64,000 nt of DNA from Parietaria judaica (Eukaryota > Streptophyta > Magnoliopsida > Rosales > Urticaceae): the NCBI GenBank assembly GCA_954871525.1, contig OX940865.1, positions 26,272,420 to 26,336,419 on the forward strand, read 5' to 3'. Below, piece by piece: positions 31,242 through 36,779 of this stretch (positions are counted from its first letter, which is position 1; each line of letters starts with the position of its first letter). A program made the translations under genes and the position numbers. The notes beneath the pieces were generated by a model, which did no database searches, had not been told where the DNA came from, and was given only the letters and a program-made list of their open reading frames with translations.

Positions 31242-31820
31242 TTTATATAGGGGAACTTCAATAAATATGCCCGGTTGACTAAATTGGAACGAAAAAATAC
31301 CCGCTTTTAATAAGTTACTAATTTATTCCCCACTCTCATTTTTAACCCCACGCCACCCCTGGTTAAACTAACAAGCCCAAACCCTCTCCCTTCCTCTCTC
31401 CTTCGTTCCCCCTCATTTCAGCAAAAGAAAAGAAAAATCAAAATAGGGCTGAAGAACCCAGCTCGAAGCTCCCTCGCCGACGAAACAACCCACCTCGCTC
31501 GAAACTCAGGCAACCAACCCTCGCCCCTCAAGAAACTCAGGCGACGTCGCCATCGCCATCGCCGACGAAACCCAGGCGACGCTGCCCAGATCGCCCTCGC
31601 CGACGAAACCCCGCAACCCACCGGGCTCGAAACTCAGGCAACCCTCTCCATTGTCTGTGCACGACGAAACCTAAGTTTGTGGCTTGATTTTGTTAGTTTT
31701 AGGGCTTGATTTTGTTCACCTGTAAGGTCACCTTCGAGATGAGCTTCTCGCTGTTGGAAATGGTGAGCGAGGTCACCTTCGAGACCAAGCCTCCGAGGGA
31801 TGAGTGCTTCCGTGTCGGCG

Positions 31821-32153
31821 ACAAAGGGGCCTCTCGTTCACCTTGGTTGTGACGTAACGACCGTGAGCTCCAGAGATGAGTGCTTCCGTGTCGTTTCTCA
31901 CGAACACAAGGTCGTTTTCATGGACGTCGGTTTAGACGGCTACGAATTCGCCGGCCAAATTCGTGAGAAGTTTGGGAAACGACACGAGAGACCGCTGGTG
32001 GTGACGCTAACTGGGAACACAGACAAGTTGACGAAGGAGAATTGCATCAGATTCGGTATGGACGGAGTTATTCTCAAACCCGTTTCGGTGGACAAGATGA
32101 GGAACGTTCTCTCAGAGCTTTTAGAACACCGGGTCCTGTTCGAAACCATGTGA
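31821..32153 (+). pseudogene. Captured ETR1-type ethylene-receptor receiver fragment
   Basis: The open frame encodes TKGPLVHLGCDVTTVSSRDE through to VLSELLEHRVLFETM and a stop. It matches the C-terminal receiver domain of ETR1-class ethylene receptors, including their native C-terminus. The phosphoacceptor block VVFMDV, the LTGNTDK block and the LKPVS lysine are present. The N-terminal part of the domain (with the acidic pair) is missing, and about eight residues after VFMDV are shortened. The histidine-kinase and ethylene-binding parts are absent. No intron interrupts it. A 19-bp stretch, GATGAGTGCTTCCGTGTCG, occurs both upstream (31799) and within it (31874), a sign of rearrangement. An incomplete receiver should not fold normally. 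Confidence 0.82.
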
Positions 32154-32858
32154 GACTCGGAAATATCCCGAAGGATGGGAAAATGGCGGTGAAGATGTAC
32201 ATAGCACTCGGTAGTGCAGCGATTCATAAAAGATGGTGCAATTAATTGACCCCGAAAAGCAGGAAGATCACTTTTTTGGGTTGTTTTTTAGAGTTCAAAA
32301 TATGCAATTTTATAGAAGACTAGATGTGGGGCAATGGATTTTGGTGGAAGAAAATTGCTTGCTTGTTAATCTCTAAAACTAGTTTTAGGTTTCCATTTGG
32401 ATGAAATTAACCAGTATTGTGACTGAAAGATGAAAGCAATCTCTCTCTTTTGCCCCTCATTTTTCATTTTCAGTATATATAAAAAATGGTGTGACATTGT
32501 TTCTTGAAAATAGAAAAAAAAAGAGAAGAAGATGAATTCTCAAAATAAAAGGGAAATCAGGGATACCATTACAAAGTAGAAAGAGACTAGGGTCGATCCA
32601 TTTCCTGGTCGGATTGCTCGGGTCGATCCATTCTTGAGTTGAGCCGGATTGCTCGGGTCGATCCATTTCCTGGTCGACTTGAGTTTGCGTCATTTTGAAT
32701 TCCTTCCCTCGGATTTCGATCCCATGGTTTCTCCCCAGCCCTATCCTCTGCCACATTTTGCGATGACACGGATCGAGGCCGAGAATTTAATTATTGCAAG
32801 ATCTCTTAAGCTAGATCGACCTTGACGCGGACTCCTTGCCCGCATGCCTTGACCACAC

Positions 32859-35775: not shown

Positions 35776-36184
35776 TTAACTTAACAACAAAAGTGTATTC
35801 AATCACAACCCGACCGCTATGTGCCTCACCCGACATTTTCGCGCCAAGCGACCACGTCTTTCACGACCATTGCACTGAACACCTAATTGGCCTCCTCTGC
35901 CCGACCCGATGACGCACAACCGGTTATTAATGCCGTAAACGACACGACATTTCTAACGAAACTTCCGTCAAACACTTGGCATGTGACTAGAATTCCTCAG
36001 GAGAATAAGCTTATTTAGCAAACTCTGAGTCTTCCTCTCCTTTCCTCGCGATGAAAGAACATGGTCGAGCGAGCTTCTCTGAGTTGGGCTTCGAGGGAAT
36101 GAAGAGGGTCAGAGGGAGGAAGTCGTGGCTAAGCCTGGGTGGTCCTGCAACGCCATGGCTAAGCTTGGGTGGTCCTGCAACGCC

Positions 36185-36619
36185 ATGGCAGCGAGAGCGG
36201 TGTCCGTGGCCCTGCTGTGCCTGGCCTTCGCGGCGGCGACGGCATCGGGGGCGCAGCAGGCGCCGGCGCCGGCGGTGGACTGCTCGTCGCTGATCCTGAA
36301 CATGGCGGACTGCCTGTCGTACGTGTCGAACGGGAGCACGGTGGCGACGCCGGAGGGGACGTGCTGCACGGGGCTGAAGACGGTGCTGAAGGCCGACGCC
36401 AACTGCCTCTGCGAGGCCTTCAAGAGCAGCGCCCAGCTCGGCGTCGTCCTCAACGTCACCAAGGCCCTCGCCCTCCCCGCCGCCTGCAAGGTCTCCGCCC
36501 CCGCCGCCGCCAAATGCGCCCGTTCTGGAGGAAGGAGAAGTTGCCGGAGAAGCATGGTCTCGGTCGATGCGATGACGGAGAAGCAGAGTGAGGAAAGGAG
36601 AGAGAGAGTCGGGAGGTGA
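36185..36619 (+). CDS. Non-specific lipid-transfer protein (LTPG-like), captured copy
   Basis: A 144-aa open frame starts with a signal peptide (about 1-23, hydrophobic VSVALLCLAFAAATA). It then carries a complete eight-cysteine motif: Cys 33, 43, 60, 61, 74, 76, 101 and 111 in the pattern C-C-CC-CxC-C-C. Lipid-transfer proteins of this class bind lipids in the apoplast or at the cell surface. After residue 111 the sequence becomes basic and Arg-rich and lacks the Ser/Pro linker and hydrophobic GPI tail of LTPG proteins, so the C-terminus appears to be fused transposon sequence. Two upstream in-frame ATGs come from a tandem repeat (about 36123-36187); the ATG at 36185 gives a proper signal peptide. 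It lies inside the TIR element. Whether it is expressed is unknown. Confidence 0.78.
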   Translation: MAARAVSVALLCLAFAAATASGAQQAPAPAVDCSSLILNMADCLSYVSNGSTVATPEGTCCTGLKTVLKADANCLCEAFKSSAQLGVVLNVTKALALPAACKVSAPAAAKCARSGGRRSCRRSMVSVDAMTEKQSEERRERVGR

Positions 36620-36779
36620 GAGAGAGAAAGAGAGAGAGAGGTGTGAGGTCGGGTTAACTTAATCCTAGGCTTGGGTTAGAATATGATTACGGGCATATTT
36701 TTGCAATTTATTAAATTCGGGTATTTTTCCGTTCAAACTTACTCCACCGAGCATATTTATTAAAGTTCCCCTTTATATA

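Follow-up and report, generated by a model that had tools for sequence, protein, structure and literature searches.

The transposon at positions 31250-36771 of the window (the whole 64,000-bp stretch of DNA analysed here) is a Pack-MULE-type, non-autonomous Mutator-like element, and the 189-bp array that it contains belongs to its transposon family and is not a captured cargo. To judge from the sequence of its arms, the element is a recombinant of two family members, with a switch of arms in the array region; we hold both this origin and the anatomy described below to be highly probable. The array of the family, lying between two exchangeable arms, is likely to be a docking platform for a transposon-encoded protein.

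Anatomy of the Element and Its Captured Gene Pieces

The element is 5,522 bp long with terminal inverted repeats (TIRs) at both ends: GGGGAACTTCA begins at 31250, its inverted partner finishes at 36771, and a perfect 8-bp target-site duplication, TTTATATA, stands on either side (31242-31249 and 36772-36779). The left TIR (31250-31330, + strand) spans 81 bp and aligns with the right TIR at 81.5%, in keeping with the preliminary description of a TIR transposon having TIRs of about 80 bp and a perfect duplication. The left TIR is part of a stretch of terminal and subterminal family sequence (31250-31801, + strand), which is 92.5-93% identical to both ends of the family member L033 or to L003 and L007, and which has a CT-rich tract at about 31380. 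The right subterminal region with its TIR (36555-36771, - strand) is 94-97% identical to L028-L031 and has a CT-rich tract on the - strand. Further inside the right arm lie a piece in common with the family member L042 (35752-35874, 95%) and a 30-bp tandem duplication (36126-36189, + strand), also present in L025 and missing from L026 and L027.

The left cargo is the last exon of a receptor gene, with a partial receiver domain, and its 3' flank (31814-32596, + strand; 95.8% to the locus L047 and, up to 32478, 95.1% to L048), followed by more downstream DNA from the same receptor gene (32634-32857, + strand; 92.9% to L047). The receiver piece matches Response_reg with E=6.8e-9 at profile positions 18-109 of 111, so that the domain lacks its beginning. 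Both receptor parents, L047 and L048, have a Response_reg exon and, upstream of it, frames matching HATPase_c (35.9 bits in L047, above the cut-off; 18.1 bits in L048, below it); parent and captured piece are presumably of ETR1 type. The right cargo is exon 1 of a lipid-transfer gene, captured from the ATG as far as the splice-donor GT and reading outward (36185-36523, + strand), with 1 mismatch in 339 bp to the locus L039 and eight mismatches to L040. From the ATG at 36185, its frame matches LTP_2 (E=6e-18) and holds nine cysteines, namely one in a signal-peptide-like start and eight after it. The receiver fragment and the lipid-transfer frame with signal peptide and eight cysteines, both named in the preliminary description, are thus present as described.

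Genome-wide, the receiver piece is found in two elements of the family (that of the window and L033) and the lipid-transfer piece in four (that of the window, L025, L026 and L027, the last with one cysteine altered in the frame); among the elements carrying either piece, only that of the window has both. Parental loci had been proposed as a check, and they were found elsewhere in the genome for both pieces (L047/L048 for the receptor, L039/L040 for the lipid-transfer gene, which has a parent at C4:27.15 Mb), so the captured pieces are not at their ancestral locus. It had also been suggested that each end could promote transcription of cargo. This could hold for the left side, where the receiver piece is in sense orientation to its nearest element end, and is the only piece to be so; it would fail on the right, since the lipid-transfer piece lies on the + strand and reads outward, so that transcription driven inward from the right end would give antisense RNA of it. 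Inward promoters at the element ends are in themselves plausible, because in a coding relative (see below) the transposase frame starts about 650 bp inside the TIR and reads inward.

Outside the element, the window contains a single uninterrupted open frame of 1,371 aa (5787-9902, + strand), possibly young, which we take, by eye, to be the second frame of an L1-type LINE. A 221-aa frame (26692-27357, - strand) resembles plastid rpoA by eye and is probably a plastid DNA insertion. Two similar bHLH-type frames, also recognized by eye, lie on the + strand at 47403-48011 and 58511-59413 (202 and 300 aa), and may be a tandem pair of which the first is shortened.

The Transposon Family and Its Coding Relative

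The family is large. The genome search with both TIRs that had been proposed earlier listed at least 81 TIR places, that is, element ends, in a 539-Mb genome with plant-type genes; the best 40 candidates were scored for each of the two queries, and the number is thus a lower bound. With so many TIR places, and with the parents of both cargos elsewhere, the preliminary description stands against the two alternatives of its own that were tested, namely a TIR pair limited to the window and gene pieces still at their ancestral locus. The ends were read for 19 elements (that of the window and 18 chosen for paired TIR matches or for lipid-transfer matches), and the 21 members examined comprise these together with an element on C9 (L053/L054) and a relative on C22 (L063-L066), the latter picked by its transposase match. 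Outside pure TA repeats, the 8-bp duplication is perfect in the window element, L027, L031, L034 and L041; it appears in L029 and L043 after a boundary shift of 1-2 bases, and with one mismatch in L033 and L035, while the other members examined lie in TA repeats or have flanks without a matching duplication. The length of the TIRs varies widely within the family, as seen in L033 (C20:3511248-3517244), whose ends are inverted copies over about 558 bp at 93.7%, vs. the 81 bp of the window element. Further host gene pieces have been captured in the family, of NB-LRR, eIF3i-type WD40, LRR and strictosidine-synthase-like kinds; pieces of the first three kinds lie at L028 2085-3140 (-), L035 7138-7608 (-), L041 1414-1989 (+) and L053 5385-5936 (-).

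The relative at C22:2923851-2933812 still codes for proteins. It starts with a TIR as in the window family, followed by a MuDR-type transposase matching the Pfam domains DBD_Tnp_Mut (27.8 bits, cut-off 25), MULE (72.8 bits, cut-off 27.6) and SWIM (25.6 bits, cut-off 19.6); with its TIRs shared and its transposase of MULE type, this member places the family among the MULEs. About 130 bp past the last transposase frame a 189-bp array begins, with a listed match at 2930460; it is present at 2931900 and ends near 2932353. Beyond it, on the opposite strand and convergent with the transposase, is a piece of an Ulp1 protease with broken frames (47 aa; Peptidase_C48, 26.0 bits, cut-off 20.7), and the other TIR follows. 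The array is therefore placed between the transposase and the Ulp1-protease piece. A further member, L037, has the start of a transposase at one end and another frame at the other end, convergent and with no array between them. This second frame is, as we suppose, DUF1985-like; it gave no match to the Pfam domain DUF1985. From these members the ancestral plan can be inferred as a transposase and a DUF1985/Ulp1 gene of opposite orientation, separated by the array and bounded by a TIR on each side; in the window element both genes have likely been replaced, the transposase by the receptor piece or the lipid-transfer piece and the Ulp1 protease by the other, and the array was kept.

The link of the two proteins to the family is not equally close. 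At 13 places the identity to the transposase piece of L037 is 89% or more, and nine of these have a listed family TIR no farther than 10 kb away, as do four of 30 less similar places checked out of 137 listed; the piece had no match at E<=0.001 in the non-redundant protein collection. The window element is not among the genome places listed as matching this piece, as befits a Pack-MULE, which has no transposase. DUF1985 is common in the genome (957 candidates), and the best 150 of these all lie more than 10 kb from any listed family TIR, with one of them 14.3 kb from an array locus; in L041 the DUF1985 match is weak (21.3 bits, below the cut-off of 35.1). Since the best 150 of the 957 DUF1985 places are not near listed TIRs, the mechanism proposed below is at its weakest in the second protein.

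Classification is also consistent with what has been described for other elements. The 8-bp duplication fits the range of 8-11 bp given for MULEs in the accessible part of PMC6446971. A hAT element was considered, as the duplication alone would fit it, and was ruled out by the TIRs of about 80-560 bp and by the MULE transposase in the family. Pack-MULEs, in the portions of the literature available (PMC6446971, PMC13317346), are likewise gene-less Mutator-like elements with TIRs, an 8-bp duplication and captured host gene pieces, and the window element carries host gene pieces with parents elsewhere (L039/L040 and L047/L048). It differs from them in the internal array, present here in all but three of 21 members, and in the exchange of arms across the array; a literature search over open-licence papers turned up no Pack-MULE family in which an array of this kind is kept inside the element. 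Ulp1-bearing MULEs (Kaonashi/KIU and the grapevine Mutavine) also combine a transposase with an Ulp1-like gene, sometimes in opposite orientation, and in the sections of these sources at hand no array is mentioned between the genes (PMC2528002, PMC13317346). The likeness of the coding C22 member to them lies in its C48 peptidase piece, judged by its domain match.

The Array Belongs to the Family

In the window element, head-to-tail units of 189 bp occupy positions from about 32859 to 35291 (+ strand), with five copies of AAACTGT per unit. The TRF row for the array covers 33097-35291 with 11.6 copies and 95% matches, and about two more units lie inverted at 35302-35731 (- strand), with 12 copies of the motif on the - strand; the 189-bp array with about two inverted units was thus correctly recognized in the preliminary description. 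What does not hold is its view of three unrelated cargos, in which the array would be a captured host satellite and the third cargo of the element. The position of the array between the two cargos would suit that view. However, an array of the 189-, 202- or 83-bp type is found in 18 of the 21 members examined, including the coding, transposase-bearing relative, and for 22 of the 28 loci listed for the 189-bp array a listed family TIR is no more than 7 kb away, with a chance of about 0.002 for each; we therefore set this origin aside as extremely improbable. The 28 loci correspond to the listed rows of a genome search with one 189-bp unit, in which 510 unit matches were counted; the remaining six were left out of closer reading.

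The 189-bp type occurs in 11 members (that of the window, L025, L026, L027, L033, L034, L035, L036, L041, L042 and that on C22), the 202-bp type in four (L028-L031, L029 having no more than about two copies of a unit of 245 bp) and the 77/83-bp type in three (L032, L043 and that on C9), while three members with family ends, L037, L038 and L044, lack an array. In sequence, the 189- and 202-bp types agree at 73%; no sequence match was found between the 83-bp and the 189-bp types.

Recombinant Origin of the Window Element

The two arms of the window element point to different members of the family. The left arm is 98.5% identical to one arm of L033 over 1,582 bp and the right arm 98.4% identical to one arm of L025 over 1,024 bp; the opposite arm of each of these two members resembles the window element in terminal family sequence only. 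Other members likewise have arm pieces in common: L036 and L041 an outer piece (99.1%, 777 bp), L035 and L041 an inner piece (99.8%, 501 bp), and L031, with a 202-bp array, and L034, with a 189-bp array, a piece at 93.9% over 1,172 bp. Array units from different elements resemble one another as closely as those of one element do, and for this reason the point of exchange within the array cannot be placed. The array probably helps the family to swap captured gene pieces between copies.

The AAACTGT Motif

The five copies of AAACTGT per 189-bp unit are about 21 bp apart and all on one strand, a number reached in none of 1,000 dinucleotide shuffles. Of the 57 intervals between copies on the + strand, 56 deviate by no more than 2 bp from a multiple of 21, a periodicity that may be a relic of a short repeat in the ancestry of the unit. 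The motif occurs 70 times in the window element vs. 12 times in the remaining 58,478 bp of the window, and it is the most densely shared heptamer of the three array types (25, 19 and 8.6 per kb, or 21-37 times the order-1 expectation). For the 83-bp type, one copy per unit was reached in 37-46 of 1,000 shuffles. In 83-bp arrays (L043 and L053/L054), AAACTGTTTATAT is paired with AAAGTGTTTATAT 21 bp later, as a second form of the motif.

Moreover, the motif changes less than its surroundings. In 76 units from 10 elements, aligned on an anchor free of AAACTGT whose columns were excluded, the rate of change is 0.86% in motif columns and 4.72% in the others, that is, 5.5-fold lower in the motif; for the motif columns a rate of 4.78% is expected from base-matched columns, and a value as low as that observed came up in 51 of 5,000 random placements. 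Between the 189- and 202-bp consensus sequences, 35 of 35 motif columns are kept vs. 115 of 146 others (p=0.0009). Taken individually, L025 and L034 have motif and other columns changing at close rates, and eight 202-bp units harvested alone gave no constraint on the motif (ratio 0.85). Finally, the terminal 150 bp of 19 elements (5,700 bp) contain a single copy of AAACTGT, a near absence that speaks against a plain transposase site.

Possible Role of the Array

Several explanations can be weighed for an array of this kind. The array could be a neutral satellite grown in the family and spread by transposition, offering unselected homology for recombination of the arms. The equal similarity of units between and within elements and the arm exchanges observed across arrays would be expected from this, and in the accessible text of PMC4079207 Tetris is an example of a transposon feeding a satellite. 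We nevertheless regard it as rather unlikely, as the lower rate of change of the motif columns in the 76 units, their complete conservation between the 189- and 202-bp consensus sequences, and the five phased copies per unit, never produced by shuffling, all argue against neutrality. The array might also provide extra binding sites for the transposase itself, more sites giving better mobilisation, as in the tandem repeats of the Galileo TIRs, which hold transposase sites according to the portion of PMC4079207 available. The proximity of array and transposase gene in the coding relative fits this idea; the single motif copy in the 5,700 bp on which the transposase must act, and the existence of family ends without an array in L037, L038 and L044, do not, and we judge it unlikely. 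From these three members it follows that array-less copies either moved or arose by deletion after moving.

It is improbable, in turn, that AAACTGT is the site of a host MYB-type or other transcription factor, and the array an enhancer for the genes or cargos of the element. The motif does, as we take it, resemble MYB-type cores, but an enhancer of TIR promoters would be oddly placed here, since the array with its tens of sites is flanked by two convergent genes, with their 3' sides towards it.

The reading that we prefer is the docking platform proposed at the outset, and a comparison with the VANDAL elements of Arabidopsis gives it a more definite form. As reported in the parts of PMC5735166 and PMC10398659 available, VANC21 and VANC6 act on VANDAL elements via short motifs in tandem repeats, removing methylation; a further target of VANC6 is AT9TSD1, unrelated to VANDAL. 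Like the present family, VANDAL elements are Mutator-like; they have short protein-bound motifs in non-coding tandem repeats, VANC contains DUF1985, and one VANC also acts on unrelated elements holding its motif (PMC5735166, in the same limits). The corresponding feature here is the array of AAACTGT copies that separates the two genes in the C22 relative, with its conserved motif. The present family differs in its long TIRs, its AAACTGT motif, its Ulp1 piece, its weak DUF1985 match and its gene-capturing, gene-less copies, and the function of its array is putative. Strict membership in VANDAL was set aside, as the motif differs and the DUF1985 match is weak. VANC arrays are the closest working analogue for gene-less copies profiting from a kept array. 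Tetris and Galileo (PMC4079207) are also DNA transposons with internal tandem repeats, and Rehavkus (PMC6446971) has a minisatellite before its 3' TIR, as far as the excerpts of these sources go; in these animal elements the repeats are within or beside the TIRs, whereas here, in a plant, they lie between two genes or cargos.

According to the mechanism that we propose, the transposase from a coding relative would act on the TIRs of gene-less copies, while a second family protein of DUF1985/Ulp1 type, VANC-like, would bind the AAACTGT sites and hold the copy unsilenced, so that copies without genes could persist provided that the array is kept. Exchange would happen in the array, by unequal crossover, conversion or template switch; the array is proposed as the place of exchange because it is nearly alike between copies on different chromosomes. 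Through such exchange left and right arms would reassort, giving two-cargo elements. That anti-silencing is the purpose of the array is a serious possibility, though one that we would put somewhat short of probable. The complete model is offered more tentatively: a Mutator family outside the VANDALs of Arabidopsis would keep, in copies without genes, an AAACTGT anti-silencing array read by an Ulp1/DUF1985 protein, and the same array would be a crossover site dealing new pairs of cargos, the outcome being unsilenced, gene-shuffling Pack-MULEs.

Significance

Pack-MULEs make chimeric gene pieces, and both the mobility of some gene-less families and the origin of two-cargo elements are open questions. 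Here both would receive a testable answer in one sequence, namely a kept motif array readable by a family protein, together with the exchange of arms across that array. The copies with 189-, 202- or 83-bp arrays, or with none, form a natural experiment for methylation and transcription. If the anti-silencing reading is true, the array would make any cargo visible to the protein of the family.
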